From Actinomyces sp. S6-Spd3 (lineage in GTDB: Bacteria > Actinomycetota > Actinomycetes > Actinomycetales > Actinomycetaceae), in NCBI RefSeq assembly GCF_000758755.1, contig NZ_JRMV01000279.1:62001-126000 (forward strand): 64,000 nt of DNA. Direction: 5' to 3'. Shown here piece by piece: positions 3,250 to 21,182 of the stretch (the stretch's first letter is position 1; every line of letters begins with the position of its first letter). The translations under genes and the position numbers were made by a program. The notes beneath the pieces are model-generated. The model ran no database searches. It worked only from the letters and a program-made list of their open reading frames with translations, and was not told the origin of the DNA.

Positions 3250-3335
3250 GATTGGCATCCTTTCGATTTTGGCCTGCTACGTGAGCAGATTGTGGATGTG
3301 ATCGCAAAGGCGGTTGCCTTTGCGGGCCTGTCACG

Positions 3336-3857: not shown

Positions 3858-3891
3858 GGTCCTCCTTTCAAAACTTCGCCGCCGGACGCAC

Positions 3892-4007
3892 AAAAAAGCC
3901 CGGCACGCAGGAAAGCGGCCGGGCTCAATAAAACCCACTTCGAAAGAAGTCACTCACCTGCGTCGGATGCTTTCGCACTTGGAATCCACCGAGGTGGATG
4001 ACCGACG
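3892..4007 (-). promoter_or_regulatory. rplJ leader (L10 leader-like) with internal attenuator hairpin
   Basis: Two structures precede rplJ. The outer one pairs CGTCGG (3961-3966) with CCGACG (4002-4007) and encloses ATCCACC / GGTGGAT (3984-3990 / 3993-3999). The second, nearer the gene, is AGCCCGGC / GCCGGGCT (3918-3925 and 3897-3904) followed by six T residues on the minus strand, a full rho-independent terminator 35 bases before the start codon. This is the layout of an L10-controlled leader with transcription attenuation. That L10 binds the outer stem is inference from the family; the fold has not been computed. Confidence 0.7.
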
Positions 4008-4113
4008 GTCTTCGGCAACGAATAGACTAACACGCCCGCACGCATGAATCCACCCTGGCAAATGTGGATCAGCACACCTCATGGACGAGGCGGACGAGCA
4101 CCAGCCGCCCACC

Positions 4114-5874: not shown

Positions 5875-5875
5875 G

Positions 5876-7696
5876 TCAGTGTCCTTTCACGGGCGCAGAA
5901 AGCTCACGCATATACGGGTGATCCGCGAGTTCCTCGGGCGTACCCCGCGCGATGAGACGACCTGCCTCGAGGATGGCAACCTGATCAACACCGATAATCG
6001 ACGCGGACCGGTGGGCGATCACCAGAACTGTTTTTCCTTGAACGAGGCGGGTGAGAGCTGATTGGATCTCGGCCTCGGCTTCGGGGTCTGTGAACGCGGT
6101 GGCCTCGTCGAGTACAAGGATGGGCGCATCGACAAGCAGTGCGCGCGCAATCGCGATGCGCTGGGCCTGCCCGCCCGAGGGATGGGCGTCTTCCCCTATG
6201 ACAGAGTCGAGGCCTCGTGGAAGGGAACGCACATAGTCGTCAATATGGGCAGCGGTGGCAGCTGCCCATATTGCCTCTTCCTTAGCATCTGGCCTGCCTA
6301 GCGCAATGTTTTCGCGCACAGATATATCAAGAAGCTGCGGATCTTGGAGAACAAAAGACACGTGCCGGTAGAGGACGTCGGGAGCAATGGCTCGCACATC
6401 AACGCCTCCGATGCGCACACTTCCTTGATCTGGGTCAGCAAAACGCGCGACCAGGGTCGCCAAGGTGGATTTTCCAGAGCCGGACGGACCCACAAGAGCC
6501 GTCACTGTCCCTTGCGGGACTGTGAGACTCACGTCTTGAAGAGCAAGCGTCGAGCCGTAAGAGAAGGAGACATCATCGATCTCGACCTCAGCCCCGCTCG
6601 GTTCCTCGTTTCCTTCAACCGGCAGCGGCGAAACAGAAAGCAGGTCGACAATGCGCAGGGCGGCGGCTCCAGCGATCTGATACGACCAAACCGTTGATCC
6701 AAGCACCTCGATTGCGGCCGGAATGACAAGAGCGATCAGCGCACAGGTGATGACCTGGACAGGGCTCACGATGCCAGCAGCCGCCAGCGCCGAACCTCCC
6801 GCTGTTGATATCAGCAGAATCATCGAGGGCGACACAGCAGCCTGTCCGAGCGCCGATCCCTTCAGCAATGGCCCACACCAGGCAACATAGAAGCTCGCAA
6901 AATCCTCAGCGGCTCGGGTGAAACGTTCATGTGCGCGCCCGACGGTACCAAATGCTTTTACAACGCTAATACCGGAAACAAACTCAACCATTGTTGCTGA
7001 GACACGCGTGAGGTACCGGTCCATTTGGGCGGTTTTCTCGCCCATGTCCCGCATCATCCACGCATTGATAAGTGCATAGATCGGTAACGTGGCGATTGAG
7101 AGCAGGCCTAGACGCCAGTCAATGATAAACGAGTAGATCAACAAGGAGAGAGGCGCGCTGACTGCAGCAGCAGACTCAACTGGCGCATGGGCTATGACCG
7201 TATGGACATCGTGAGTGTCGTCCTGGATCGCCTTGCGCACAGCCCCCGAGTTCGTCGAGGTGAACCACGCGAGGGGCGCTGATGCAAGGACTTTCACCAT
7301 GCGCATGCGCACGATGTGTCCAAAGCGCACATCCGCGAAGTGGGTGACGCTCAGTGCAAGGAAGTAGATTCCGTAGCGCGCACCAAATGCTCCGATAAGC
7401 CACATAAGCAGGCTGATAACCTCAGCGCGGTCAGGAGAGACCCCCGAGCGCGCTGCGGCAAGAAGTACCTCGCCAAGCTGGACGAGAATGACATAGGGAG
7501 CGACTGCAAGCGCGCCGTAGAGGACGCCAAGTAGCTGGGCGAGAGCCATGGATCCACGGATCGGTGCGGTAAGTTCCTTGAACGCCTTTTGCCCAGCCCT
7601 GTGTGCAGCGCGCGGGTCGTTCATTTCGGCTCCGTCACAGGATGACAAGGCTTGCTCTTCCCTGCTCACTTTCAGGCCTTGATCACTGTCAGTCAT
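5876..7696 (-). CDS. ABC transporter, fused membrane-ATPase half (YbtP/Irp6-like)
   Basis: Partner of the preceding half-transporter. 606 residues: a hydrophilic N-terminus of about 50 residues, six membrane segments (about 55-330), then an ATPase domain with Walker A GPSGSGKST, Q-loop VLQDPQLLD, an altered signature PSGGQAQR (Leu replaced by Pro), Walker B ILVLDEATAF and H-loop IAHRSA. The start ATG at 7696 overlaps the upstream ATPase stop as ATGA and is preceded by GGAAAG, so translation is coupled; an in-frame longer start at 7762 lies inside the upstream gene. The signature change suggests that one of the two ATP sites in the heterodimer may be degenerate. Substrate unproven; iron or haem is likely from the operator. 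Confidence 0.88.
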   Translation of the reverse strand: MTDSDQGLKVSREEQALSSCDGAEMNDPRAAHRAGQKAFKELTAPIRGSMALAQLLGVLYGALAVAPYVILVQLGEVLLAAARSGVSPDRAEVISLLMWLIGAFGARYGIYFLALSVTHFADVRFGHIVRMRMVKVLASAPLAWFTSTNSGAVRKAIQDDTHDVHTVIAHAPVESAAAVSAPLSLLIYSFIIDWRLGLLSIATLPIYALINAWMMRDMGEKTAQMDRYLTRVSATMVEFVSGISVVKAFGTVGRAHERFTRAAEDFASFYVAWCGPLLKGSALGQAAVSPSMILLISTAGGSALAAAGIVSPVQVITCALIALVIPAAIEVLGSTVWSYQIAGAAALRIVDLLSVSPLPVEGNEEPSGAEVEIDDVSFSYGSTLALQDVSLTVPQGTVTALVGPSGSGKSTLATLVARFADPDQGSVRIGGVDVRAIAPDVLYRHVSFVLQDPQLLDISVRENIALGRPDAKEEAIWAAATAAHIDDYVRSLPRGLDSVIGEDAHPSGGQAQRIAIARALLVDAPILVLDEATAFTDPEAEAEIQSALTRLVQGKTVLVIAHRSASIIGVDQVAILEAGRLIARGTPEELADHPYMRELSAPVKGH

Positions 7697-9150
7697 AATT
7701 GCTTTCCTTCGTTGGCACACCCACCGTCTGCTGGTGTGAGTGTGATCAGTCGATCTGCGCACGCCGAGGCAAACTCGCCGTCGTGGGTAACAACGATGAC
7801 GGCTGCACCTTCGTCAGCAATGCGCCGCAGGGTGGCGGTAATTGAATCAAGGTGCCTGGCGTCGACTCCCGAGGTTGGCTCGTCGAGGATGACGATGGGA
7901 CGCCTTGCTGCGCGTGCGGCAGCGATGACGAGGCGTTGTTTTTGTCCTCCCGAAAGGCTCAAGGGGTGGCGATCACCCAGGTTCGCGAGGTCAAAGTCAG
8001 CCAAGAGTTTCTCCCCGACCTCCCCGCTGGCATCCGAGGCGCCAATGGTCAACTCGCCCTCGAGTGTGTCGGAAAAGAGCTGACGCCCGGTATCTTGCAT
8101 GACGAGTGCGCACATTGCACGCCTCTGACTGCGCGAGCTTGTCACGCCATCCAAGGAAATCTCCCCAGAGTTCGGGGCTGCCAATCCGCACAGCACGCGG
8201 ACAAGAGTCGTTTTGCCGACACCATTGACCCCGGCGATGCAGGTAATTTCCCCAGAATGAAAATCCGCATTAAAGCCCTGAAAAACTGGAGTGCGACCAT
8301 AGGAGAAGCTCAAGTTACGGCACGATAGCCGGGGAGCCTCAGCGCCCGCGGCTACTTCCCCGCTCCCCCGCGAGGCCACCCAGGCCTCGGGCGGTCCGGG
8401 ATCAACGAGGGTACGCAAGCCAAGAGAGCAGCGTTCCTCATCCGTCATGGAATAGAACTCCTCGCCGCTCCAGCGCCTCGTCACCGCGCCAGCCTCCATG
8501 AGGAGAACCTGGTCGGCAAGTCCGCTCAGGAAGTGAAGGCGATGCTCGACGACAACGATCGTCATCCCCTGTTCTTTGAGGAGCTCGAGGGCACGTCGCA
8601 CATCAGCGATTGCTGCGGGATCGAGGTTTGATGTCGGCTCATCGGCGAGGAGGACCGGAGCACCAGATGCCAGCGCGCACGCAAGAGCTACCTTCTGAAG
8701 CTGTCCGCCAGACAGCGTTGACAGCTTGCGATCCATGAGGGCGTAGATCCCCATGAGCTTTGCGGCGCGTTCACTGCTCTCGATCAAATCCGTACGGTCT
8801 CGACCATAGTTTTCACCGCAGAATGCGAGTTCCTCTGCAACGGTATCGCAGAAAAATTGAGTGCGTGGATTCTGAAAAACAGAGGAACACAGATGACCAA
8901 CCTCAGTCAGGGGAACCTCTGCCAGATCGCGCCCGTCGATCCGCACCGCACCTTCCAGCTCTCCCGGAGTCATCTGCGGGACGAGGCCGGTGAGCGAGCG
9001 CATGAGCGTCGACTTCCCACAGCCGGAGGAGCCGCACACGAGGGTGAGGGTGCCCGGCCGGGCGGACAGGTCGACTCCGGCGAGCGCGTCGACGCGATCT
9101 CCCGTCAGCTCGCTGACGTAGGAGAACGACAGGGATTCAACATCAATCAC
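7693..9150 (-). CDS. ECF transporter A component, two fused ATPase domains
   Basis: Energising ATPase of an energy-coupling-factor importer, with both ATP-binding subunits in one chain (485 residues). Domain 1 (about 1-240): Walker A GSSGCGKST, signature LSGGQLQKV, Walker B VLLADEPTS. Domain 2 (about 265-480): GVNGVGKTT, LSGGQKQRL, IVILDEPTSG. The start is the GTG at 9150: it overlaps the T-component stop as GTGA and has GGGAG upstream, and the ATG further upstream lies inside the T gene. The 3' end overlaps the next ABC gene as ATGA. About 150 bases at its 5' end are clearly richer in GC than the rest of the gene. Confidence 0.9.
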   Translation of the reverse strand: MIDVESLSFSYVSELTGDRVDALAGVDLSARPGTLTLVCGSSGCGKSTLMRSLTGLVPQMTPGELEGAVRIDGRDLAEVPLTEVGHLCSSVFQNPRTQFFCDTVAEELAFCGENYGRDRTDLIESSERAAKLMGIYALMDRKLSTLSGGQLQKVALACALASGAPVLLADEPTSNLDPAAIADVRRALELLKEQGMTIVVVEHRLHFLSGLADQVLLMEAGAVTRRWSGEEFYSMTDEERCSLGLRTLVDPGPPEAWVASRGSGEVAAGAEAPRLSCRNLSFSYGRTPVFQGFNADFHSGEITCIAGVNGVGKTTLVRVLCGLAAPNSGEISLDGVTSSRSQRRAMCALVMQDTGRQLFSDTLEGELTIGASDASGEVGEKLLADFDLANLGDRHPLSLSGGQKQRLVIAAARAARRPIVILDEPTSGVDARHLDSITATLRRIADEGAAVIVVTHDGEFASACADRLITLTPADGGCANEGKQL

Positions 9151-9923
9151 GGAAGGACTCCCAGGTGCGCACAGATCTCGATAACGATGACGCCGATCAC
9201 GCACGTCAGGGCGAGCGCGTCCCAGACGCTGGCCCTCAGCCGCGTGAGCGAGGTGGGGCGCGTGGGTCCGCCCAGACCTCGGACGACGCTCGAGGCCGCG
9301 AGGTCATCGGCGACGCGCGCGATCGAGGAAAGCAGGGGAACGAGGAAGCGCTCAGCGATCACCAGCGGGTGACGCAGCACGCCGCGCATCCTCAGGTCCA
9401 CTCCGCGCATCTCCATGGCCTCACGGATGGCTACTGCCTCGGCCCCCACAGTCGGGATGACGCGGAAGGCAACCACGAGCGCATCAATGAACACACGCGG
9501 TAGATGAATGGCACGCAGTGCCGCCTTCATCTGTCCAATTTTCGTCGTTCGATACACGTAGAGGGCGAGGCCGAAACCCGCGAAGAAACGCGCAAACCAG
9601 TACATGATCGCGCTGCACGTTCCGATGATGAGAACGATGCTCCGAGGCCAGCCGATCGACTGCATCCAAGCGATGAGAAAAGGGGAACCAAGGGTGACGA
9701 GGTCGCAGATGAAGCAGCCGAACCCCGTGTGCAGCGCGGACCGAGCGCTCACCTCCCATGCGAGGGCAACCACTACCAAGAGCTGAACGGCAACAAGGGT
9801 TGTCGTGGGACTCGCACGCATGACGAGCGCATTGAGCACGAGAAGGGCTAAGAGTTTCGTGCGTGGGTCCAGCCTGCTCGACGACTCACCGGGAGCCGAT
9901 TCGGCCGGCGAGATCTCAGGCAA
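9147..9923 (-). CDS. ECF transporter T component (EcfT/CbiQ family)
   Basis: Membrane coupling subunit that links the S component to the ATPase. About 258 residues with four to six membrane helices (first near LLALLVLNALVMRA, last near ALALTCVIGVIVIEI) and the CbiQ-family cytoplasmic signature AIREAMEMRGVDLR, an Ala-Arg-Gly-type coupling helix. The start is uncertain: no ATG is available; I choose TTG at 9923, which overlaps the S-component stop in the string TTGCCTGA and has AAAGG six bases upstream. An alternative TTG at 9986 would overlap the S gene by 71 bases. The segment from about 9200 to 9460 is unusually GC-rich. Confidence 0.85.
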   Translation of the reverse strand: MPEISPAESAPGESSSRLDPRTKLLALLVLNALVMRASPTTTLVAVQLLVVVALAWEVSARSALHTGFGCFICDLVTLGSPFLIAWMQSIGWPRSIVLIIGTCSAIMYWFARFFAGFGLALYVYRTTKIGQMKAALRAIHLPRVFIDALVVAFRVIPTVGAEAVAIREAMEMRGVDLRMRGVLRHPLVIAERFLVPLLSSIARVADDLAASSVVRGLGGPTRPTSLTRLRASVWDALALTCVIGVIVIEICAHLGVLP

Positions 9924-10515
9924 CGCCGGCCTTTGCGAAGTGCTTGCGAAGCAGGAAGCGCCCGATGAGTCCACCAATGCACGCAAAGATCATCGCAACA
10001 ACGACCCATACGCTGATGACAGCGGGGCTGAAGAGGGCACGCATACCATCCGCGTAGTCCTGGCCCATCTGGGACGCGACATCCGCGTAGTAAGAGTCGG
10101 GAGCAAAGAAAATCGGAGCAAGCGGGCCGATCATCCACAGGGAGAAGAGCATGTATGCTGCGATGTTTCGAGGGGCGCTCAGATATCCACCGCTGTGGGC
10201 GATGAGGTCAGCCAAGAAACCGAGGACAAGAGCGAAGGGTACGGTCACCCATGCATGTCCTGTCACGACCATGAGGAAGGCGACGATGCCCGCCATGATC
10301 GTGACCGTCCCAAACATGCGCGAGCGCACCATCATCAGCATGATGACCGGCCCGTTAAGGAGGAGACCGACAATCCAGCCAACGAACATGAATGCCGGGC
10401 CGAAGAAGCCGAGCATTCCCGAGCACCACATGAGAATGAAATAGACGGCGGTAAATGCACCAATGGTGACAGCTGAGCGCGCCTTTGTAACGCCCGAGCT
10501 TGAAACCTGAGTCAT
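9916..10515 (-). CDS. ECF transporter S component (MptD / Trep_Strep family)
   Basis: Small integral membrane protein (199 residues, about six helices) that binds the substrate of an ECF importer. It resembles the Trep_Strep/MptD group of S components, whose members are found with CbiO/CbiQ proteins; related ECF systems in streptococci and staphylococci have been reported to take up haem or iron. The ATG at 10515 has AAAGG eight bases upstream. It is the first gene of the five-gene cassette S-T-A-ABC-ABC, and a DtxR/IdeR-like box lies 37 bases upstream, which supports an iron-related substrate. The exact ligand cannot be read from the sequence. Confidence 0.82.
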   Translation of the reverse strand: MTQVSSSGVTKARSAVTIGAFTAVYFILMWCSGMLGFFGPAFMFVGWIVGLLLNGPVIMLMMVRSRMFGTVTIMAGIVAFLMVVTGHAWVTVPFALVLGFLADLIAHSGGYLSAPRNIAAYMLFSLWMIGPLAPIFFAPDSYYADVASQMGQDYADGMRALFSPAVISVWVVVAMIFACIGGLIGRFLLRKHFAKAGVA

Positions 10516-10551
10516 GATCGCGACCTTTAATGATAATGAGGTTTATAGAAT

Positions 10552-10570
10552 AAAGCTAAGGATAGCCTAT
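10552..10570 (-). promoter_or_regulatory. DtxR/IdeR-like iron box before the ECF cassette
   Basis: Minus strand ATAGGCTATCCTTAGCTTT compared with the DtxR/IdeR consensus TTAGGTTAGSCTAACCTAA matches at 12 of 19 positions, including the AGG-n-TA-n-CCT core. It lies in an AT-rich stretch 37-55 bases before the S-component start, overlapping the likely promoter. Repression when iron is plentiful is the natural reading. Binding is inferred only. Confidence 0.6.
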
Positions 10571-10615
10571 TTTTATGTAGGCTTATAAGACCTTGTGCCC
10601 AATTGGAATAACACA

Positions 10616-10648
10616 AAGGCCCCCACGAGCGTTGCTCGTGGGGGCCTT
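10616..10648 (-). terminator. Terminator after rplK-rplA
   Basis: A perfect 15-base-pair stem (AAGGCCCCCACGAGC with its complement) around a three-base loop, 35 bases beyond the rplA stop. It closes the ribosomal operon, so the ECF cassette downstream must use its own promoter. The T run is short. Confidence 0.88.
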
Positions 10649-10682
10649 AGAAAACGACTATCTGCCGTTAACCTCTAGTGCT

Positions 10683-11399
10683 TCAGGAAGCATCCTCGGA
10701 GGTCAGGGCGCGAGTCTTGGTGGCATCCAAGGGGATACCGGGGCCCATGGTCGTGGCGACCGTGGCCTTGATGATGTAACGGCCCTTTGCGGAAGCCGGC
10801 TTCAGACGCAGGATCTCATCGAGAACAACTGCGTAGTTCTCAACGAGCTGCTCGGCGGTGAAGGAAGCCTTACCGACGATGAAAGCCAGGTTTGCGTGCT
10901 TGTCGACACGGAACTCGATACGACCACCCTTGATCTCACGGACAGCCTTGGCGACGTCCATGGTCACGGTGCCGGTCTTGGGGTTCGGCATGAGGCCACG
11001 GGGACCCAGGACGCGGCCCAGACGGCCGACCTTGCCCATGAGGTCCGGGGTTGCAACGGCGACATCAAAGTCGGTGTAGCCCTTTGCGACCTTTTCGATG
11101 AGCTCGTCGCCGCCGACCTCGTCGGCTCCAGCGTCGAGTGCTTCCTGTGCGCGCTCGCCAACGGCGAAGACCAAGACCCGAGCGGTCTTACCGGTGCCGT
11201 GCGGCAGGGAAACGGTGCCTCGGACCATCTGATCCGCCTTGCGGGGATCAACACCCAGTCGCATAACAACCTCGACGGTTGAATCGAACTTGGTGACCGA
11301 GGTTTCCTTGGCCAAACGCATTGCGGCCAGGGGGCTGTACAGTTCGCCAGCGTGGATCTTCTCCGCCGCTGCGCGGTAGCTCTTAGAGCGCTTCGTCAT
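10683..11399 (-). CDS. rplA: 50S ribosomal protein L1
   Basis: Large-subunit protein of the L1 stalk, which helps release deacylated tRNA and represses the L11 operon mRNA. 238 residues with the L1 signature around [11 protein letters not shown] and the conserved [14 protein letters not shown] at 11399; it follows rplK by 66 bases in the same transcript. The length is usual for bacterial L1. Confidence 0.98.
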
Positions 11400-11465
11400 T
11401 CTGCTTCTTCTCCTTGCAGGTGTGGGTGTCGGGCAGCGCCTGCCCTACCACGAGGTAATAAAGGG

Positions 11466-11900
11466 TCAGTCCTGAACAGTGATGCCCATGGAACGCGCGG
11501 TGCCCGCGACGATCTTGGAAGCGGCATCAATGTCATTGGCGTTGAGGTCAACCATCTTGGCCTGGGCGATTTCGCGCACTTGGTCCATGGTGATCGATCC
11601 AACCTTGGCGGTGTTCGGGGTACCCGAACCCTTTGCAACACCTGCAGCCTTCTTGATCATCTCGGAGGCCGGAGGGGTCTTGAGGACGAAGGTGAAGGAG
11701 CGATCTTCGTAGACGGTGATTTCAACCGGGACGATCGAACCGCGCTGCGACTCAGTTGCAGCGTTGTATGCCTTCGTGAATTCGACGATGTTAACGCCGT
11801 GCTGGCCCAGTGCGGGACCAACGGGCGGAGCAGGGGTCGCGGCGCCTGCAGCGATCTGCAGCTTAATGAGGCCGGTGACCTTCTTCTTCTTCGGTGCCAT
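11466..11900 (-). CDS. rplK: 50S ribosomal protein L11
   Basis: Large-subunit protein of the GTPase-associated centre and binding platform for thiostrepton-type antibiotics. 144 residues: [16 protein letters not shown] start, the Pro-rich [14 protein letters not shown] of the N-terminal domain and a C-terminal domain with SMGITV at the end. The ATG at 11900 is chosen over a longer open frame because it gives the exact family N-terminus. Its promoter is visible at 12016-12044. Confidence 0.98.
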
Positions 11901-12015
11901 ATTTCGGGTCTTTCTATTTCTTACTGGGCCGCGGAGACTACCGCGGCATGCATCCACGTGGCGCCCACAGGAAGAGCAACCTGCGGACATAGTCCACCCA
12001 GACGCACGAATCTAC

Positions 12016-12044
12016 ATCATAACGCGATGTCGGCGCTCCCCCAA
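12016..12044 (-). promoter_or_regulatory. Probable promoter of rplK-rplA
   Basis: Minus strand -35 TTGGGG, 17-base spacer, -10 TATGAT (5 of 6 consensus bases), about 115 bases before rplK. It lies in the 176-base gap between nusG and rplK, which would make a long leader able to carry the L1 control site. Confidence 0.6.
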
Positions 12045-12076
12045 GTCTTGGTGCTCGAGGTCACGCCACGAGGCGT

Positions 12077-12889
12077 TTACTCTTCGATCTTCTCGACCTG
12101 ATCGAAGGTCAGCTCCATGGGGGTCTCACGCTCGAAGATGGTCAGGAGGACCTTCAGACGCTGGGTTTCAGGCATGATCTCAGAAATCACAGCGCTCATG
12201 GTGGCGAATGCACCGTCGATAACGGTGACAACCTCGCCGACCTCGAACTGGGTCTGAACTTCCTGGACGGGGGCGGGAGCGCTCTTCTCTTCTGCAGCCG
12301 CGGCCTCGAGAACATTCGGGGTCAGCAGCATAACGACCTCGTCGATCGAAAGCGGGACCGGGTTGTGCTGGTCACCCACGAAGCCGGTGACTGCGGGGGT
12401 TTCCTTCACCACACGGTAGGAGTCTTCGTTGAAGTCCATGCAGACGATGACGTAGCCGGGAATGCGCACGCGACGAACGCGCTTCTTCGCATTTCCGCGG
12501 TACTCCATGACGTACTCATCGGGAACCTCGACCTGGAAAATCGAGTCTTCCATGTTCTGGTTGGTAATACGCTGCTCAAGGTTTGCCTTCACCTTGCGCT
12601 CGTGACCGGAGTAGGTGTGAATGACGTACCAGTCGCCGGGAGACATGTAGAGTTCGCGGCGCAGCTTTTCTACCGGATCATCGTCTGACGAGGCCGCCTG
12701 CTCAGCTGCTTCTTCAACGCCAGCTTCCGCTTCGCCTTCTTCACGTGCTTCCTCGCGCTCGACGGGAGCATCTTCAAGGCGTTCTGCCACGTCGTCTTCG
12801 CGCTGTGCGGCAGTTTCCAGATCAGCTTCGGGCGCGATTCCACCGTCAAAGGTGTCGATCGGGGCCTCTTCGATATTGTCTAGGCTCAC
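12077..12889 (-). CDS. nusG: Transcription termination/antitermination protein NusG
   Basis: General transcription elongation factor that binds the RNA polymerase clamp and couples it to Rho or to ribosomal protein S10. 270 residues: an acidic Glu/Ala-rich extension of about 80 residues, the NGN domain (from [20 protein letters not shown] to the conserved [14 protein letters not shown]) and a C-terminal KOW domain ([16 protein letters not shown]). The GTG at 12889 is chosen because AGGAGG lies seven bases upstream; the upstream TTG has no such site and would read through the secE terminator. The acidic extension is common in actinobacterial NusG. Confidence 0.95.
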
Positions 12890-12945
12890 GGGTTTTCCTC
12901 CTGTGCTTAACGCTCGCGCGGTGTTCGCGGCCGAGCCGTAGAAGA

Positions 12946-12973
12946 AACCCGCCTGCATTCCTGCGGGCGGGTT
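12946..12973 (-). terminator. Hairpin terminator between secE and nusG
   Basis: Stem AACCCGCC / GGCGGGTT, extended inward by about three more pairs, beginning 8 bases beyond the secE stop and followed on the minus strand by TTCTTCT. It probably ends part of the transcripts so that secE and nusG are expressed at different levels. Confidence 0.7.
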
Positions 12974-12980
12974 AACGGTT

Positions 12981-13277
12981 TCAGCCAAATACCAATGAGT
13001 TCAGTCTACCGAATAAGAAATCAAGAAGGCCAGTGAAAGCCATAATTGCGGCAACAAACACAATGACGACGAGGAAGTAGGTCCAGGTCTCAGAACCGCT
13101 GGGATAAATGACTTTCTTCATCTCAGAGATCACCTGAGAGACAAAGATCACCATACGCTTGAAAATATTCGGGCGTTTTTCCTTGGGTTGAGGTGCGCCA
13201 TCGCGCGAGGGGGTTGCACGCTTCTTCGTGCGATCCACCCGCGGGGATTCTTCACGGCGAGCCTGGGATTCGCTCAT
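12981..13277 (-). CDS. secE: Preprotein translocase subunit SecE
   Basis: Essential clamp subunit of the SecYEG protein-export channel in the cytoplasmic membrane. 98 residues: a basic hydrophilic N-terminus of about 35, the amphipathic helix ([20 protein letters not shown]), the conserved [10 protein letters not shown] turn and one membrane span (about 68-88). ATG at 13277 with GGAGG six bases upstream. The order tRNA-Trp, secE, nusG is the usual actinobacterial one. Confidence 0.97.
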
Positions 13278-13307
13278 CGTTCCTCCAATAGTTATGCACC
13301 TGAGTGG

Positions 13308-13380
13308 CAGGGCAGGCGGGACTCGAACCCACAACCGCCGGTTTTGGAGACCGGTGCGCTACCAATTGCGCCACTGCCCT
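13308..13380 (-). tRNA. tRNA-Trp(CCA)
   Basis: 73-base cloverleaf on the minus strand with acceptor stem AGGGCAG / CTGCCCT, discriminator G, T-loop TTCGAGT and anticodon loop CTCCAAA, giving anticodon CCA. It lies 30 bases upstream of secE and is probably cotranscribed with it. Confidence 0.96.
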
Positions 13381-13498
13381 ACTGCAACTCTTCCGAAAAA
13401 GACTTGCTCGGTTGAGTTTAGGGGAGAAGAGGCCTCCTGTCCAACTCACCGCGATGCGTTCGCCTCATAAGCGCTCAAATTGTGACTCACACCAATAA

Positions 13499-13520
13499 AT
13501 GGATCTATCCATGCCACAAT
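13499..13520 (+). promoter_or_regulatory. aspC -10 box with adjacent inverted repeat
   Basis: -10 CACAAT at 13515-13520, six bases before the chosen GTG start, with no Shine-Dalgarno, pointing to a leaderless mRNA. Two bases upstream of the box lies the inverted repeat ATGGAT-CT-ATCCAT (13499-13512), placed like an operator. No convincing -35 is present. Confidence 0.45.
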
Positions 13521-13526
13521 GTTCGC

Positions 13527-14741
13527 GTGGATACTCAATCAGCCTCCCGCGTCTCAACGCGCTTCGCAAATATCACTCCCTCAGCGACCCTTGCCGTCGA
13601 CGCTAAGGCCAAGGCACTGAAGGCCCAGGGACGCCCCGTCGTTGGTTTCGGTGCGGGCGAACCTGATTTCGCCACCCCCGATTACATTGTCGAGGCCGCC
13701 GTCAAGGCCGCGCGCAACCCCGCGATGCACCGCTACACGCCCGCCGCCGGCCTCCCGGCGCTGCGCGAGGCCATCGCAGAAAAGACCCTGCGCGACTCCG
13801 GCTACGAGGTCTCCCCCGCCGACATCGTCGTGACCAACGGCGGCAAGCAGGCCGTCTTCCAGGCCTTCGCCGCGCTGCTGGGCCCCGGCGACGAGGCGAT
13901 CCTGCCGACCCCCTACTGGACGACGTACCCCGAGGTCGTCAAGCTCGCCGGTGCGACCCCCGTCAAGGTGTTCGCGGGCGCCGACCAGGACTACAAGGTG
14001 ACCGTCGAGCAGCTCGAGGCCGCGCGCACGCCTCGCACGAAGGTCCTCCTCATGTGCTCGCCGTCCAACCCGACGGGCAGCGTCTACACGCCCGAGGAGC
14101 TGACCGCGATCGGCCAGTGGGCCCTCGAGCACGGCATCTGGGTCATCTCCGATGAGATCTACGAGCACCTGCTGTACGAGGACGCGCAGACTGCGCACAT
14201 CGTCAAGCTGGTGCCCGAGCTGGCCGACCAGGCCGTCATCCTCAACGGCGTTGCCAAGACCTACGCGATGACCGGCTGGCGAGTGGGCTGGATGATCGGC
14301 CCCTCCGACGTCATCAAGGCCGCACTGTCCTTCCAGTCGCACCTGACCTCCAACGTCAACAACGTCGCCCAGGAGGCCGCGCGCGCCGCCGTGTCGGGTT
14401 CCCTGGACGCCGTGGACGAGATGCGGGTCGCCTTCGACCGTCGCCGCCGCACGATCGTTGACATGCTGCGCCAGATCGACGGCTTCGACGTTCCGACCCC
14501 CAAGGGCGCGTTCTACGTCTACCCCTCCGTCGAGCGCCTGCTGGGTCGCGAGATCCGCGGCCGCGTGGCCAACACATCGGGTGAGCTCGCCGACCTGATC
14601 CTCGACGAGGTCGAGGTCGCGGCGGTTCCAGGCGAGGCCTTCGGCCCCTCCGGCTTCCTGCGCTTCTCCTACGCCCTGGCCGACGACGACCTCGTCGAAG
14701 GCGTTGGTCGTATCCAAGAACTCCTGTCAGAAGCCCGATAG
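13527..14741 (+). CDS. aspC: Aspartate aminotransferase (class I PLP)
   Basis: PLP enzyme that exchanges amino groups between aspartate and 2-oxoglutarate. 404 residues from the GTG at 13527, which follows a -10 box by six bases; an earlier TTG/ATG would add a weak N-terminus. Visible motifs: GAGEPDF near residue 40, TNGGKQA (phosphate of PLP), [16 protein letters not shown], and the Schiff-base lysine in [22 protein letters not shown] near the end carries the substrate-carboxylate Arg. The middle of the gene is far richer in GC (45 of 60 bases in 13861-13920) than the hydrolase next to it (29 of 60 in 15121-15180), which suggests allele exchange with a high-GC relative. Its last 182 bases recur at 15961-16142. 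Confidence 0.93.
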
Positions 14742-14764
14742 ACCAATTACATGCGACTGAAGTT

Positions 14765-14803
14765 CCGCGCGGTGAGTACTTTTGTGCCACCGCGCGGGCT
14801 TTT
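14765..14803 (+). terminator. Terminator after aspC
   Basis: Stem CCGCGCGGTG / CACCGCGCGG (14765-14774, 14788-14797) followed by GCTTTTA. A diverged copy follows the duplicated aspC tail at 16160. Confidence 0.88.
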
Positions 14804-14860
14804 ATGAACGCACTGTCAAAAAGTGTGCAGTAGCGCTACCTAAAGTGTGTCCCGAGCTGT

Positions 14861-14866
14861 TATAAT
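14861..14866 (+). promoter_or_regulatory. -10 box of lipase copy A (leaderless)
   Basis: A perfect TATAAT, then TGACAT, then the ATG at 14873. With the -10 six bases from the start codon, transcription should begin at or next to the A of ATG. Two AAAGTGTG repeats lie upstream (near 14819 and 14843) where an activator could bind; no clear -35. Confidence 0.65.
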
Positions 14867-14872
14867 TGACAT

Positions 14873-15682
14873 ATGGACATCTCGACGCGGAGAACACAAC
14901 TCGACCAACCCAATGGACATGTCCTTGTCGCCCACGGTTATGCTGAGCATTCGGGACGTTTTGAAGGTCTGATCAATGCACTTCTCCAGGCTGGCTACGA
15001 TGTGTCAACCTACGACCACTATGGTCATGGCACTTCCCCAGGCCCTCGCGCCAAGGTCGATGTCGGTCTGCTGATCAAGGACCACATCGCTGCTCGCCAA
15101 CAGGCTCTTCACAATTCACGCTGCGATGAATTGATCCTCTTTGGGCATTCAATGGGTGGTTTGATTAGCGCTGCTTCTGCGCTGATCTACCGCAAGGATC
15201 TGCGATGCATGGTCCTCACTGGACCCGCTTTTATTCCACTCCTCGAGATTCCTAAGCCCGTGGTTGGCAGACTTGGGAAACTGGCTCGCTATTTGCCGGG
15301 AGTACAGGCTCCGGCGGCACAGTCCATGCCCGACCATTCCGTACTTTCGCATGATCCCAGCGTCCAAGAAGCTTTCGACGCCGATCCCCTCAACTACCAC
15401 GGCGCTCCCCCGCGTCTGACGCTCTCGACCATGGTGATTCAGGGCAAGAAGGCGCTCGAGCACGCGGATCGCCTGACCTGCCCCACGCTGATTTTCCACG
15501 GCAGCGCCGATGAGCTCACCTCGCCGGAGGGTTCTGCAGAGTTTGTTGAGCGTGTACGTCATGCGCATCCCGACGCAGATATTGACCTGCGTGTCATCGA
15601 TGGGGCCTACCACGAAGTCTTGAATGAGCCTGAGAAGGATATGATCCTACGCGACCTGCTCCTGTGGCTCGAGAAGCACTGA
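14873..15682 (+). CDS. Monoacylglycerol lipase-like alpha/beta hydrolase, copy A
   Basis: Serine hydrolase of the lysophospholipase/monoacylglycerol lipase group (S33-like fold), 269 residues, no signal peptide. Near the N-terminus [10 protein letters not shown] forms the oxyanion-hole region; the nucleophile elbow is GHSMGG (Ser about 94); the acid is the Asp of HGSADEL (about 216); the base is the His of GAYHEVLNE (about 247). All three triad residues are present, so it should be active. It differs from copy B at about 40 positions (about 85% identity by eye). The stop is followed by a remnant of adenosine deaminase that has lost its start codon. Substrate not predictable; mono- or lysophospholipids are likely. 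Confidence 0.88.
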
Positions 15683-15966
15683 TAGGATCGACCTCTATTC
15701 CTCGCCAGCCTTCTCTTACCGTTCCAGCGCCGACTCCCCTTGGGCGACGACCGCTGTCCACGCTCCCCAAGGCGCACCTGCACCTGCACTTCACGGGTGC
15801 GATGCGCCCGCAAACTCTGATCGATATGGCCCGCGAGAAAGGCACTCGCCTTCCTCCTCACCTGTTGGACTTGGACCCCTTAACCGTGCCCGCGGACGCC
15901 CGCGGTTGGTTCCGTTTCCAGCGCTCCTACGATGCCGCGCGTCACCTCGCGCGTTCCGAGGCCGCG
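15682..15966 (+). pseudogene. Truncated adenosine deaminase remnant
   Basis: Matches the first 95 or so codons of the intact deaminase at 17081, including [17 protein letters not shown] and the segment up to the Arg-Ser-Glu-Ala stretch. The start codon, ATG in the intact gene, is ATA here. At the string GCCGCG the sequence jumps into the tail of aspC, and the deaminase frame then stops after eleven unrelated residues. It lacks most of the catalytic domain and cannot be functional. It marks the right-hand end of the first copy of a tandem duplication. Confidence 0.92.
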
Positions 15967-16142
15967 TGGCCAACACGTCGGGCGAGCTCGCTGACCTGAT
16001 CCTCGATGAGGTTGAGGTCGCAGTTGTCCCGGGCGAAGCCTTCGGCCCCTCGGGCTTCATTCGCCTCTCTTACGCTTTGGCCGATGACGATTTGGTCGAG
16101 GGCGTGGGACGAATTCAGGAGCTTCTCTCCGAGGCTCGCTGA
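15961..16142 (+). pseudogene. 3' fragment of aspartate aminotransferase
   Basis: Corresponds to the last 60 codons of aspC (14560-14741) plus its stop. The amino-acid sequence is almost unchanged (about 3 conservative replacements) while some 30 third-position bases differ and the stop is TGA instead of TAG. It has no start or promoter and joins the deaminase remnant at a shared GCCGCG. The synonymous pattern shows that this piece diverged while it was still part of a working gene. Confidence 0.92.
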
Positions 16143-16159
16143 CTCAGGGTTCCACTACG

Positions 16160-16205
16160 AAATCCCGCGCGGTAGGCACATCGCTAGCCGTGCGGGATTT
16201 TTCTT
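16160..16205 (+). terminator. Terminator after the aspC fragment
   Basis: Stem AAATCCCGCGCGG / CCGTGCGGGATTT with one mismatch, followed by TTCTT. It is the diverged counterpart of the aspC terminator at 14765. Confidence 0.85.
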
Positions 16206-16259
16206 ACTCTTCGTCAAGTCACACCCCAATATCGCTACCCAAATGACGCCTTGAGCTGT

Positions 16260-16265
16260 CACAAT
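16260..16265 (+). promoter_or_regulatory. -10 box of lipase copy B (leaderless)
   Basis: CACAAT followed by TGACAC and the ATG at 16272. Position and downstream six bases are the same as in copy A, but the -10 matches consensus at only 4 of 6 bases against 6 of 6, so copy B may be the weaker promoter. Confidence 0.6.
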
Positions 16266-16271
16266 TGACAC

Positions 16272-17081
16272 ATGGACCTTTCAACTCGGCGCACTCACCT
16301 CGATCAGCCTCGCGGGCATGTCCTGATTGCCCATGGTTACGGCGAGCATTCGGGACGTTTTGAAGGACTCAGCACCGCTCTCCTCAACGCAGGCTACGAT
16401 GTGTCCACTTATGACCACTACGGCCACGGCACTTCCCCCGGGCCTCGCGCTCAAGTCGACGTCGGTGCGTTGATCAAGGACCACATCAGCGCTCGCCAAG
16501 AAGTTTTGGCCGATTCCCGTTTCGATGAGCTCATTCTTTTCGGGCATTCAATGGGGGGTCTCATCACTGCGGCCTCGGCTTTGATCTCACAGCGAGGCAT
16601 TCGCTGTATGGTCCTCACTGGTCCCGCTTTCATCCCGCTTCCTCATCTTCCCGCGCCGGTGGTTGGTGGCCTCGGGAAACTCGCTCGCTACCTGCCGGGA
16701 GTGCAGGTTCCGGCGGCCCAGTCCACGCCCGAGCATTCTTTGCTTTCGCGCGATCCCAGCGTTCAGGAAGCTTTCGACGCCGATCCGCTCAACTACCACG
16801 GCGCTCCCCCGCTTCTGACGGCCTCGACCATGGTGATTCAAGGCAAGAAGGCCCTCGAGCACGCGGATCGCCTGACCTGCCCGACGCTGATTTTCCATGG
16901 CAGTGCTGATGAACTGACCTCACCGGAGGGCTCTGCAGAGTTTGTTGCGCGCGTGCTCGAGGCTCACCCCGACGCAGATATTCACCTGCGCGTCATCGAT
17001 GGGGCTTGCCACGAGGTTCTCAACGAGCCTGAGAAGGCCATGGTCCTGCGCGACCTACTCCTGTGGGTCGAGAAGCACTGA
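16272..17081 (+). CDS. Monoacylglycerol lipase-like alpha/beta hydrolase, copy B
   Basis: Paralogue of copy A with the same length (269) and the same triad: Ser of GHSMGG, Asp of HGSADEL, His of GACHEVLNE. Changes cluster at about residues 105-130 (the lid-like insert), where substrate choice is usually set in this family, so the two copies may differ in specificity. Its stop overlaps the start of adenosine deaminase as TGATG, so translation of the two is coupled. I recall murB, adenosine deaminase and aspC being neighbours in Streptomyces without a hydrolase between them, which would make the hydrolase an insertion. Confidence 0.88.
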   Translation: MDLSTRRTHLDQPRGHVLIAHGYGEHSGRFEGLSTALLNAGYDVSTYDHYGHGTSPGPRAQVDVGALIKDHISARQEVLADSRFDELILFGHSMGGLITAASALISQRGIRCMVLTGPAFIPLPHLPAPVVGGLGKLARYLPGVQVPAAQSTPEHSLLSRDPSVQEAFDADPLNYHGAPPLLTASTMVIQGKKALEHADRLTCPTLIFHGSADELTSPEGSAEFVARVLEAHPDADIHLRVIDGACHEVLNEPEKAMVLRDLLLWVEKH

Positions 17082-18172
17082 TGGAGCAGCATCAAGCATC
17101 TCGCCAGCTTTCACTAACGGTCCCAGCGCCGACTCCCCCCGGGCGTCGGCCGTTGTCCACTCTGCCAAAAGCGCACCTGCATCTGCACTTCACGGGTGCG
17201 ATGCGACCGCAAAGTCTGATCGATATGGCCCGCGAGAAGGGCACTCGCCTTCCTCCCCACCTCTTGGACTTGGACCCCTTAACCGTGCCCGCAGATGCTC
17301 GCGGATGGTTCCGTTTCCAGCGCTCCTACGATGCCGCGCGCGCTTTGGTCCGTTCCGAAGCCGCGATGCGGCGGATCGTTGCCGAGGCCGCGGAAGATGA
17401 TGCGGCCGAGGGCTCGCGTCGCCTCGAAATGCAGGTTGACCCCACGTCTTATGCCCCTTGGGTTGGCGGGATTACTCCCGCTTTGGAGATCATCATTGAC
17501 GAGGCGATCGCTGCGGGAAAGCGCACGGGCGTCGAAGTTGCATTGATCGTTGCGGCTTCGCGAATTCGCCATCCCCTTGACGCGCGAACGCTTGCTCGTC
17601 TGGCAGTTCAGTATGCGGGTGATGGCCCCGGACAGGTTGTGGGCTTTGGTCTGTCCAATGATGAGCGCGTTGGCGATACCTCAGCGTTTGCTCCTGCCTT
17701 CCGTATTGCCCGCGAGGGCGGTTTGGCCTCGGTTCCTCATGGCGGGGAGCTTTTGGGCCCGGAGTCTGTGATGAATGTTGTTTCAGCCCTGCACCCGACG
17801 CGTTTGGGTCACGGCGTGCGCACCAGTGAAGATCCCGATTTGCTGCGGCGTTTGATTGACGAGGATGTTTCTTTCGAGGTGTGTCCGACCTCGAATATTC
17901 ACCTGGGGGTCTTCCCCGATTTCGCATCTGTTCCGCTCATGCGCTTTATCGAGGCCGGCGCGCGCGTTGCTCTTTCGGCTGACGACCCCTTGCTATTCCA
18001 TTCGCGCGTGGTTGCCCAATACGAGGCCGCGCGTGATGTTTTCGGGCTTTCTGACGTTCAGCTGGCAGATTTGGCACGTCAGTCTATTGATGCTTCTTTG
18101 GCTAGTGAGGCCTCGAAACGCGTGTGGAAAGCGGAAATCGATCAGTGGCTCGCGGCCCCACCCGCGGTGTGA
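17081..18172 (+). CDS. add: Adenosine deaminase
   Basis: Zinc amidohydrolase that turns adenosine into inosine for purine salvage. 363 residues, typical length. Motifs: metal-binding HLHFTG near residue 35 (usual form HLHLDG or HLEG, so the Thr is atypical), the catalytic PHGGELLG (usual HAGE), RLGHGVRTSEDP, CPTSNIHLGVF and SADDPLLF with the metal and catalytic Asp. The start is the ATG at 17081 in the TGATG overlap with the hydrolase; an upstream GTG/TTG would lie in that gene. Its 3' end overlaps the convergent HEAT-repeat gene by 31 bases. Adenine or another aminopurine as substrate cannot be excluded. Confidence 0.9.
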   Translation: MEQHQASRQLSLTVPAPTPPGRRPLSTLPKAHLHLHFTGAMRPQSLIDMAREKGTRLPPHLLDLDPLTVPADARGWFRFQRSYDAARALVRSEAAMRRIVAEAAEDDAAEGSRRLEMQVDPTSYAPWVGGITPALEIIIDEAIAAGKRTGVEVALIVAASRIRHPLDARTLARLAVQYAGDGPGQVVGFGLSNDERVGDTSAFAPAFRIAREGGLASVPHGGELLGPESVMNVVSALHPTRLGHGVRTSEDPDLLRRLIDEDVSFEVCPTSNIHLGVFPDFASVPLMRFIEAGARVALSADDPLLFHSRVVAQYEAARDVFGLSDVQLADLARQSIDASLASEASKRVWKAEIDQWLAAPPAV

Positions 18173-18798
18173 GCGGCATTCCGTTCAATAAATTTGCTCG
18201 CTAGCTTGTGGACCTGTCGAGTTTCCTTGCTTTCCAGATCCCACGCGCTTAATTCGGTTGCAACCAGGTCTGGGAACCTCTTACTGATATCGCGTAGAGC
18301 GTTTCCCACAGATTTTCTGACGTACTCGCTCGGGTCATTTCGAAGCGCCGAAAGCCTCTCGATTGCCTCACATGGGTGCTCTTTAAAATAGGGGCGACTG
18401 GTCCATATCCGTAGTCCTTCAGTGACAGCTCTACGAACATTTGGATTGGAATGAGCCAGCCACTCGTCGATCACTGAAAGAGAGTGCTCATACCCCGTAG
18501 TGGCGCAGAAAAAGTCAAAGGCTTTCGCCAGGATTTCTTGAACTCTCCAGTTGTCATCCTGGGCGATATTTTCCCTCAAGAAAGTAAGTACTTCCTGATC
18601 CTGCGAGAGATACCCGAAGAGGAAAACCGCGTACATTCGCACCTGGTAAACCTCGGAGCGGTATGCGCAATAGGCAATTTCCAAAGCCTGGTCGCGATCA
18701 TGAGAGTCGTAGTCGCTGCGTGCCCGCCGCTCTTCTTCTTTGAAGCCTCCCTCGATCGGGGAAAGGTCTCTTTCCAAGCTCGCAAGGTACTCGTTCAC
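18142..18798 (-). CDS. HEAT-repeat protein, DNA alkylation repair (AlkD)-like
   Basis: 218 residues, almost all helical, with HEAT-like repeats; the stretch NPNVRRAVTEGLRIW, then RPYFKEHP and SEYVRKSVGNALRDISK is characteristic of the AlkC/AlkD DNA alkylation repair superfamily, in which HEAT repeats wrap round DNA and remove alkylated bases. No catalytic residue can be fixed from sequence alone, so a non-enzymatic HEAT protein is possible. The GTG at 18798 has AGGAGG six bases upstream; the longer frame to 18840 would run into murB. It is lower in GC than its neighbours (32 of 60 bases in 18301-18360). It lies 35 bases after murB and its 3' end overlaps add. Confidence 0.75.
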   Translation of the reverse strand: MNEYLASLERDLSPIEGGFKEEERRARSDYDSHDRDQALEIAYCAYRSEVYQVRMYAVFLFGYLSQDQEVLTFLRENIAQDDNWRVQEILAKAFDFFCATTGYEHSLSVIDEWLAHSNPNVRRAVTEGLRIWTSRPYFKEHPCEAIERLSALRNDPSEYVRKSVGNALRDISKRFPDLVATELSAWDLESKETRQVHKLASKFIERNAAHTAGGAASH

Positions 18799-18833
18799 GG
18801 CGGTCCTCCTCAGCTCGTTGAAGATAGCCCGAA

Positions 18834-19922
18834 CTACCACTCAATGCCGATGGCAACAGGCTCAGGAACAAGAGTCACGCCATAGGCATCAAAGACACGC
18901 TCGCGCACAGCGCGCGCCAAGGCCTCGATGTCTGCGCCGCTTGCACCCCCGCGGTTTGTCAGTGCGAGCACGTGCTTGGTCGACAAGGATGCGCGAGGCG
19001 GGGCACCGGCCTCTAGAAGATGGAAACCCTTGGAGCAGCCCGCGTGGTCAATGAGCCAAGCAGCGCTGGTTTTCACCAGTCCCTCCCCCGCCGGGAAACG
19101 AGGCGCCTCTTCGGGGAGCGCGGCAGCCACGGCCTCGGGGAGGATGGGGTTAGTGAAGAAAGATCCCGCGCTCCACGTATCGTGGTCCTCCGGGTTTAAG
19201 ACCATTCCCTTCCCCGCGCGCAGCTCAAGCACGGTCGAGCGGACCAGGGAAGCCTCGGCACGCTCCCCAGCTTCCACTCCGAGGCGCCGCGCAAGTTCGG
19301 AGTACATGACGGGCGCACTCAGGGATGAGCGCTCGAGGCGGAAGTCGACGCTCAACACAACCCAACGCCCCGTCGGCCCCCACACGCGGCCGGGAAGACC
19401 GGGCTGACCAATGCTGTGCTTGATCGCGGAGGAACGGTAAGCAAAACCTAGCTCTGCGGGAAGCAGACGAACGGTGCGCTGCTCGAGGCGGTCGTAGGCC
19501 TCGACGCTGTGAATTGTTTCAGCAACCTCGTGTCCGTAGGCGCCCACGTTCTGTACCGGGGATGCTCCCGCGCTTCCGGGGATCCCCGACAAAGCCTCGA
19601 TACCGGACAACTGTTCTTCGACGCTCCACGCAACAAAGTCATCCCAAACTGTACCGGCCCACACACGTACAATCACCGAGTCAGCCGCATCCTCTTCAAC
19701 GATGCGCGCAATCTCTGCACCCGGACGTACAGCGACAACAGCTCCATCAAATGGAGCATCCGATGCAAGCAGATTCGATCCGCCGCCCAGAACTAGAAGC
19801 TGGCGCTGCTCCTCATCGGCCGCGCGAACGCCAGCAACCAATTCCTCACTGGAAGTTGCGCGTACAAGGCGAGAAACCTCTCCGCCCACGCGAAAGGTCG
19901 TCAATTCAGCAAGAGTCGTCAT
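18834..19922 (-). CDS. murB: UDP-N-acetylenolpyruvoylglucosamine reductase
   Basis: FAD enzyme that reduces UDP-GlcNAc-enolpyruvate to UDP-MurNAc with NADPH, the second step of peptidoglycan synthesis. 362 residues: N-terminal TTFRVGGEVSRL, FAD-binding LVLGGGSNLLASD, SGIPGSAGASPVQNVGAYG (substrate and flavin site), YRSSAIKH (catalytic Tyr region), AGSFFTNP with the catalytic Ser, and HVLALTNRGGA near the end. ATG at 19922, ten bases downstream of the MFS gene stop. Part of the conserved murB, add, aspC, secE neighbourhood. Confidence 0.97.
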   Translation of the reverse strand: MTTLAELTTFRVGGEVSRLVRATSSEELVAGVRAADEEQRQLLVLGGGSNLLASDAPFDGAVVAVRPGAEIARIVEEDAADSVIVRVWAGTVWDDFVAWSVEEQLSGIEALSGIPGSAGASPVQNVGAYGHEVAETIHSVEAYDRLEQRTVRLLPAELGFAYRSSAIKHSIGQPGLPGRVWGPTGRWVVLSVDFRLERSSLSAPVMYSELARRLGVEAGERAEASLVRSTVLELRAGKGMVLNPEDHDTWSAGSFFTNPILPEAVAAALPEEAPRFPAGEGLVKTSAAWLIDHAGCSKGFHLLEAGAPPRASLSTKHVLALTNRGGASGADIEALARAVRERVFDAYGVTLVPEPVAIGIEW

Positions 19923-19931
19923 GACTCAAGA

Positions 19932-21182
19932 TTAATCGTCAAGAGGTGCAACGGCTCGCACGCGCCCCCGCTGGTCCGGAACCTGTCCGGCCAAGACGAT
20001 GGCCAGACACACCGGGAGCACGACGAAAATGAGCGCACGGTGGTAGCCGACGTGATCTGCAATAAGACCTAAAATCGGCGGTCCGATGAGCGCCGAACCA
20101 TAATTCACGGTCGAGAGGACCGATACTCGCGCAGGCGTCATCACGGGATCAATGCTCAGGGCGGAAATACCCAGGGGGAACACCAAGGATGCACCGATAC
20201 CCCACAAGGCAACACCGATAACCGCAAGAATATGATGCGGCGCAAAGGCAACAAGCATCAGGCCAACGATCGCGCATCCCATGGTCAATCGAAGCAGATG
20301 CGGCGCCCCAAAACGCCTCTCTAAACGCGGAGATCCGAAGCGCATGATCGTCATCATCAGCAAGAAGAAAGCGAAGATCGCCGACGCCGTCGAGGTCGCA
20401 AAACCATAACCGTCGACCATCGACAGGTTCAGCCAGTCGTTAGCAGCGCCTTCCAGGAGTCCGCCGCTCATCACCATGAGAGCGATCAGAACCGTGCGGC
20501 GTTCGCGCCACGCCAAGCGGGTCAGGCCCTTCTTCGCATTGCCTGCCGAGGCCTCGTCCCCTTCGCCCGCAGGGCTTTCCCTTGCGGGTTCAAGAGCGGC
20601 GACCTCGTCCTGACTGAGGTAGAAACCAATGGAAACACCGCACACAATAAGTTCAAGAGCAGCCAGACCGTATAAGTGCGCTCCGAGTGGAACTCCGACC
20701 CGCGAGGCAAGTGCTCCAAGTAATGCGCCACCAAGCATGCCAACCGCGTACATCGCTTGAATCACTGGAACTACAAGGCGCCTCACAGCAGCTTGGACCA
20801 AACCAGCCTCGATGTTCATGCTCGATCCCCACAGGCCCGCCCCGGCAGACATGAAAACAAGGGAACCGGTGAAGAGCACGAGAGAATTCGCGAGCGTTCC
20901 CGTCGCTGCTCCGACAATGCCCAATGCCCAAATGAATACGCCGATTCGCCCAGCCCACCGTGCACCGATCTTCATGACGATCGGACCCGAAGTGGGAAGG
21001 GTCAACAAAGAACCCAGGGAGGCAATCAGCAGCATCATGCCGATGGTTCCCGGGGTCAATCCCAGGTGATCACGCACATCGGGTAGACGTGAGAGCCACG
21101 CTGAGGTTGCAGAACCCAGGCCTGCGTAGACCACAAAGGTTGCACGAAGGGCACTGTGAGCGCGAGCTGAGGGGATAGACAT
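19932..21182 (-). CDS. MFS transporter (YbjJ-like)
   Basis: Major facilitator superfamily protein of 416 residues with about twelve membrane helices split by a hydrophilic loop (about 205-235, rich in Glu, Ala and Gly). The loop after helix 2 has a loose MFS signature. The closest pattern I recognise is the YbjJ group of putative sugar or drug carriers. The ATG at 21182 is chosen over the TTG at 21191; TAAAAT lies eight bases before it and there is no Shine-Dalgarno, so the mRNA may be leaderless. It follows the sialic-acid operon and its terminator, so a role in that pathway is not implied. Substrate unknown. Confidence 0.85.
   Translation of the reverse strand: MSIPSARAHSALRATFVVYAGLGSATSAWLSRLPDVRDHLGLTPGTIGMMLLIASLGSLLTLPTSGPIVMKIGARWAGRIGVFIWALGIVGAATGTLANSLVLFTGSLVFMSAGAGLWGSSMNIEAGLVQAAVRRLVVPVIQAMYAVGMLGGALLGALASRVGVPLGAHLYGLAALELIVCGVSIGFYLSQDEVAALEPARESPAGEGDEASAGNAKKGLTRLAWRERRTVLIALMVMSGGLLEGAANDWLNLSMVDGYGFATSTASAIFAFFLLMMTIMRFGSPRLERRFGAPHLLRLTMGCAIVGLMLVAFAPHHILAVIGVALWGIGASLVFPLGISALSIDPVMTPARVSVLSTVNYGSALIGPPILGLIADHVGYHRALIFVVLPVCLAIVLAGQVPDQRGRVRAVAPLDD

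Follow-up and report, generated by a model that had tools for sequence, protein, structure and literature searches.

The window that we analyzed, a stretch of 64,000 nucleotides from the draft assembly of Actinomyces sp. S6-Spd3 (G000; 281 contigs), carries on contig NZ_JRMV01000279.1 (G000:C279) a tandem array in which the end of an aminotransferase gene (aspC), a lipase-like gene, and the start of an adenosine deaminase gene (add) occur twice. The two units are different alleles of one aspC–lipase–add segment, and the array has been shaped by homologous recombination among related species; the joint between the units also occurs in Actinomyces marseillensis, and the DNA to its left and right is of a type found in ten congeneric genomes that we call the D group. 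The full history that we favor, to which we assign a probability of about 0.68, is that a D-type joint entered by homologous recombination, that it duplicated the resident lipase gene, and that one of the two units was later replaced.

All of the features lie on the forward strand. From position 13482, the gene order is intact aspC (13482–14741; Pfam family PF00155), a spacer (14742–14872), the first lipase gene (lipA, 14873–15682), approximately the first quarter of add (the fragment add', 15664–15966, a partial match to PF00962), the joint (15961–15966), the last 183 base pairs (bp) of aspC (the fragment aspC', 15960–16142), a second spacer (16143–16271), the second lipase gene (lipB, 16272–17081), and intact add (17063–18172; 566.6 bits against NF006849, with a cut-off of 494). 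The hexamer GCCGCG is present at three places, that is, in aspC (14560–14565), at the joint (15961–15966), and in the intact deaminase gene (17360–17365), and the starts of the units are spaced by 1,401 and 1,399 bp; the sequence read across the joint is TCCGAGGCCGCGTGGCC. Direct copies therefore abut at a sequence that is found at both parental positions, as in a tandem duplication with a short-homology joint. A repeat search returned four aligned blocks at a spacing of 1399 or 1401 with 75–88% identity, and alignment of one unit with the other, a check proposed in an earlier note made from the letters of the sequence, gave 79.8% identity for the aspC tail, 54.0% for the spacer, 80.0% for the lipase (DNA), and 82.7% for the deaminase start. 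No N occurs within window positions 10000–20000. The earlier note had described the gene order as occurring twice with a period of approximately 1.4 kilobases (kb), with GCCGCG at both parental positions, two intact lipases, a truncated first deaminase copy, and an intact second copy; this description stands, with its coordinates right to within a base or so and the frame of the deaminase fragment ending at 15999. Its interpretation survives in part: the duplication and the short-homology joint are supported; the descent of the joint from the window's own genes, its length of 6 bp, and the divergence of the copies in place are not.

In a search of 35 genomes of the genus, lipases with >80% protein identity were found in four: the host assembly, A. 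marseillensis (G010), a record titled Trueperella pyogenes 331_TPYO (G016), and Actinomyces sp. ph3 (G019). The last two have a single unit, so the single-copy arrangement that the note had suggested looking for in relatives exists. (The record titled T. pyogenes groups with the Actinomyces/Schaalia clade in the compared segments, and its name looks wrong.) The joint, searched as a pattern of 38 bases with up to three mismatches, was found in two of the 35 genomes; G000 has one match and A. marseillensis has two, and all 36 specified positions match in both. One of the two joints in A. marseillensis sits in an exact 2,536-bp repeat that starts at a single N (position 8685 of record L032, which also has 2,710 N at 3147–5856, between secE and a tRNA gene); a true third copy was set aside because the extra copy is exact and begins at that N, and we take it as a scaffolding artefact.

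The order of the lipases is reversed in A. marseillensis. At the DNA level, lipA is 99.5% identical to the second lipase of that species (synonymous divergence, dS, 0.005; nonsynonymous divergence, dN, 0.005), and lipB is 91.9% identical to the first; we refer to these types as the A and B alleles. Identities between A and B lipases are 79.9–83.2%, including 80.0% for lipA and lipB of the window (dS 0.878, dN 0.102). The spacers show the same pattern: the A-type spacer before lipA is 93.1% identical to the second-unit spacer of A. marseillensis and 54.0% identical to the other spacer of the window, and the B-type spacer before lipB is 97.7% identical to the first-unit spacer. The lipases, which the earlier note had regarded as paralogues diverged in place, are thus the same allelic types in opposite order in a sister species, with lipA nearest to the second lipase of A. 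marseillensis and lipB nearest to the first. Reversal of the order via simple unequal crossing-over was judged, by reasoning alone, to need several steps.

The D group (G001, G005, G006, G013, G018, G020–G023, and G026) is our own grouping, which may be Schaalia odontolytica and its allies. Fixed sites are those with one base throughout the ten D genomes and a second base throughout the native genes; tracts were also painted by the best match to ten D versus three or four native references, a procedure with a slight bias to D from which the fixed-site counts are free. In add' of A. marseillensis, the 33 fixed sites are 12 native and then 21 D; in add' of the window they are 28 native and then 5 D (last native site at 15934, first D site at 15943), and the native part is painted like unit 2 of A. 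marseillensis and then partly like G019. On the other side of the joint, the 19 fixed sites in aspC' of the window are 8 D and then 11 native (last D site at 15989, first native site at 16007), that is, a D-type start followed by B-type sequence like the intact aspC of A. marseillensis; in aspC' of A. marseillensis the first 13 of 19 are D and the rest are mixed, the D alignment being uncertain beyond approximately position 140. If the calls were randomly ordered, a single switch would have a chance of approximately 6e-9 for add' of A. marseillensis, 8e-6 for add' of the window, and 3e-5 for aspC' of the window, values that are rough because neighboring sites are linked.

The intact aspC of the window is itself approximately three-quarters D-type. 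Of its fixed sites, 37 of the 38 up to position 195 are native, 73 of the 74 between 265 and 1183 are D, and the last six, in a native-like tail, are mixed; the switches lie between 195 and 265 and between 1183 and 1222 (last native site at 13676 of the window, D tract from 13746 to 14664). Gene positions 241–1204 are 89–97% identical to the ten D genomes (96.7% to G023) and 76–77% identical to native relatives, and positions 1–240 are 99.6% identical to A. marseillensis and at most 69% identical to D. Intact add was painted native in 8 of 8 intervals (480 bp from 17082). The D lipase, with 51–54% protein identity to the lipases of the window, is absent from the array. In the trees, ultrafast bootstrap values are 100 for the grouping of the add' tract of A. 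marseillensis with all ten D genomes and 86 for that of the intact aspC of G000 with D, where an inner node reaches 96; outside the D group, most support in the deaminase tree is low. In leave-one-out controls of the site calls, 26 of 27 rows had 0–7 wrong-type calls. The clean switches between donor and recipient sites and the conflicting trees identify the array as a mosaic made by interspecies homologous recombination.

The parents of the joint can be compared in the same genomes. At the joint point, the run shared by intact aspC and add is 6 bp in G000, 0 in A. marseillensis, and 1 bp in each of G016 and G019; in the D genomes it is 12 bp in two of ten, 7 bp in five, and 3–4 bp in three. 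In the two with 12 bp, TCCGAGGCCGCG, which occupies 15955–15966 in the window, occurs in both add and aspC. The D-type flanks of the joint speak against the window's own genes as its parents, and the longer match in D genomes against a microhomology of 6 bp, both of which the earlier note had proposed. Because the B-type aspC that follows in aspC' has no GCCGCG at this point, the recombination in aspC' probably postdates the joint.

The fragments bear the marks of working genes. From intact aspC of the window, aspC' differs by 30.5 synonymous and 4.5 nonsynonymous differences; from intact aspC of A. marseillensis it differs by 1 synonymous and 0 nonsynonymous from bp 49 onward, and by 10 and 8, respectively, over all 180 bp, joint end included. 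The corresponding counts for add' and the start of intact add are 29.5 and 17.5 (dS 0.567, dN 0.092), a divergence that is less one-sided than that of aspC' and still appears like that of a gene under selection. The D tract of add' in A. marseillensis has a one-base deletion, as expected of a scar. Since the divergence of the fragments is mostly synonymous, it most likely arose in working genes before the copies met.

On the reading that we favor, the joint would have formed at a homology of up to 12 bp between add and aspC, both of them D-type. The DNA bearing it would have paired on the left with resident add and on the right with resident aspC of the sister chromosome, and the pairing of both arms would have duplicated the recipient's own lipase; the donor lipase would not have been brought in. 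DNA of the other allele would later have replaced the second unit in G000, with a crossover in aspC' between 15989 and 16007, and the first unit in A. marseillensis, with a crossover that falls in add' after fragment position 71 and before position 135. The route would be transformation, by analogy with the pneumococcal model, duplication by a bridging donor fragment being documented for Streptococcus pneumoniae in the excerpted text of PMC3784515; among the matches listed in a literature search for competence and natural transformation in Schaalia, no title dealt with competence in this genus. Recombination would remove copies that are 80% identical less readily than it removes identical copies, and arrays of unlike alleles may persist for this reason; the two lipase variants may also have been kept by selection, and the gene fragments would be passive scars. 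Our probability covers both a joint that arrived ready-made and a joint that was made on import, and we consider the two about equally likely. A bolder formulation, which we put forward tentatively, is that the duplication joint is a transmissible seed between species, that is, that the D-type joint alone, with no donor lipase, moved via homologous recombination and duplicated a gene of the recipient, with later allele exchange producing a lasting two-allele state whose order is opposite in the two species; in a search of the literature on related ideas, no title on a transferred duplication joint was among the matches listed, which is no proof of absence.

Several observations weigh against this reading. 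The joint, the array, or a second strong lipase match was found in none of the ten D genomes, so we can only infer a ready-made joint in the donor; the intact aspC of G000 is also D-type, which makes a resident gene introgressed beforehand a possible source of the aspC side of the joint. The D tracts beside the joint in G000 rest on 5 and 8 fixed sites. In a tree of a 140-bp stretch of aspC', the intact aspC of A. marseillensis pairs with the window fragment (99) inside a weakly supported D clade, with values of 27–74 at the enclosing nodes; this stretch is mosaic rather than purely native, and its tree is not used as support. Of the 178 sites in intact aspC of A. marseillensis, 40 were called D-like in the leave-one-out controls and 20 received other calls; minor D-like stretches or ancestral sites may be present in this gene. 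The run of 2,710 N and the single N lie in the array region of A. marseillensis. The comEC and dprA families were matched in 6 of 6 genomes, and each was also matched in 10 of 14 controls, including Escherichia coli, so these matches are nonspecific. Finally, a consensus scan of 14600–16400 found no promoter-like site before either lipase.

The strongest alternative is a variant of the favored reading that departs from it solely in the making of the joint, and its share lies inside the probability given above. Here the joint would have arisen within the clade by homology-facilitated illegitimate recombination: resident add would have anchored one end of an incoming D fragment of add, and the other end would have been joined at 7–12 bp to a resident aspC that earlier introgression had made D-type. 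The duplication would thus have been made on import, and one unit replaced later, as in the favored reading. The intact aspC of G000 is D-type over approximately 960 bp, and it shares with aspC' of A. marseillensis a D-to-native change near the end and a tail that is 97.3% identical over 183 bp; joints of this kind are short and GC-rich. The mechanism is discussed in the excerpted text of PMC5361080. However, two separate D imports would be needed, and at sites 18 and 24 of the aspC fragment the intact aspC of G000 departs from both fragments, which carry there the base of 8 of 10 D genomes; this mismatch could also be a later change in G000.

Duplication in place, in which the window's own aspC and add underwent illegitimate recombination at GCCGCG and the paralogues then diverged while the fragments decayed, is improbable. 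The structure and coordinates fit such an event, and the present intact genes share 6 bp; however, the lipase order is swapped in A. marseillensis, the flanks of the joint are D-type, and the divergence of the fragments is mostly synonymous, and on these three grounds we rejected it. In addition, the B-type aspC of A. marseillensis has no GCCGCG at this point (0 bp shared), although aspC' of the window continues B-type. Still less probable is the independent formation of the joint in G000 and A. marseillensis at the same microhomology: the 7–12-bp match exists in 7 of 10 D genomes and could be used repeatedly, but both genomes agree with the joint pattern at 36 of 36 specified positions and the A lipase is 99.5% identical between them. 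An assembly artefact, for which the N run and single N beside an exact repeat in A. marseillensis and the 281-contig draft state of G000 might argue, is the least credible, since the window stretch contains no N, the copies are 80% identical and easily told apart, and the same joint occurs in two assemblies.

The favored reading can also be set against the remainder of the 64-kb window. Median identity to A. marseillensis is 93.8% (60 of 64 one-kilobase pieces with alignments >600 bases), compared with 84.7% to G016 (58 of 64 pieces) and 84.3% to G019 (52 of 64 pieces). At 61001–64000 the affinity is reversed (95.8–99.5% to G016, 81.4–86.9% to A. marseillensis), and this segment is a probable recent import from a G016-like strain. 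At 4001–10000, identity to A. marseillensis is lower (86.7–91.9%), between pieces of 99.5% and 94.7%; this is perhaps another exchanged segment. The pieces of reversed affinity elsewhere in the window imply that interspecies recombination is common here, which makes our explanation plausible and also less exceptional.

Both lipase frames are intact (269 amino acids each), and Ser93, Asp213, and His247 are present in both, the triad being assigned by motif. Both also exceed the cut-off of the PF12146 profile (E 2.7e-55 for lipA, 1.8e-54 for lipB), which places these alpha/beta hydrolases among the monoacylglycerol lipase-like enzymes; lipB matches the monoglyceride lipase of Mycobacterium tuberculosis at E 2.1e-33. 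Because the frames are intact and the catalytic residues are retained, both lipases are probably made. The scan described above found 2 terminator-like sites versus 1.6 expected by chance, with a terminator-like hairpin at 14781–14798 in the first spacer (not above chance) and none in the second; with no promoter-like site and terminators at the chance level, expression of both copies is an assumption from the intact frames, and the terminator and −10 element that the earlier note had placed before the lipases are weak. TATAAT, TACAAT, or CACAAT lies 6 bases upstream of the lipase ATG in 6 of 6 aligned copies (14861–14872 and 16260–16271 in the window); this motif, where the consensus scan found no promoter, might be a sign of a leaderless messenger.

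The difference between lipA and lipB peaks in bp 181–450 (16452–16721 in lipB), where they are 71–76% identical; this block holds the nucleophile codon. Because the block is 97–100% identical between lipB and lipase 1 of A. marseillensis while the first 180 bp are 81–82% identical, lipB is itself a mosaic. As for the ATA start of the deaminase fragment that the note had recorded, decay was rejected as its origin: TGATAGG stands at the same point in the intact 369-codon deaminase gene of A. marseillensis, which is open from an in-frame GTG farther upstream, and add' of the window is likewise open from an upstream GTG at 15664.

Parts of this history have parallels in known systems, as described in excerpts of the sources cited. 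In merodiploids formed by transformation of S. pneumoniae, a short donor fragment bridges two places on sister chromatids and recipient DNA is duplicated in tandem; there, the repeats are incomplete IS861 copies, the duplications are approximately 100–900 kb, and the setting is the laboratory (PMC3784515), whereas here a duplication joint from another lineage would act as the bridge, the unit of 1.4 kb lies in a natural genome, and the mechanism is deduced. Homology-facilitated illegitimate recombination, in which one end is placed by homology and the other without it, can likewise add allelic modules and leave remnants (PMC3240628; PMC5361080); in this array, by contrast, the DNA to the left and right of the short joint is of one foreign type, and each of the outer switches falls within homologous sequence. 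Tandem related genes have also been accumulated or shuffled by recombination in the orphan immunity-gene arrays of the type VI system of Vibrio cholerae (PMC5361080) and in the esaG arrays of Staphylococcus aureus (PMC9484751), but these are toxin-immunity loci and the gene here is lipase-like and lies between an aminotransferase and a deaminase gene. A heterozygous tandem duplication in evolved E. coli similarly keeps two unlike alleles in cis; one of its copies has a 2,668-bp deletion and it is unstable without selection (PMC3708739), whereas the copies here differ by approximately 20%.

Tandem copies that resemble ordinary paralogues serve to date duplications and to infer new functions. 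In this array, the two copies seem to be alleles that predate the duplication, and they are linked by a foreign joint; paralogue-style dating would therefore mislead, and, if a joint can be passed on alone, a duplication could move between species without the duplicated gene.

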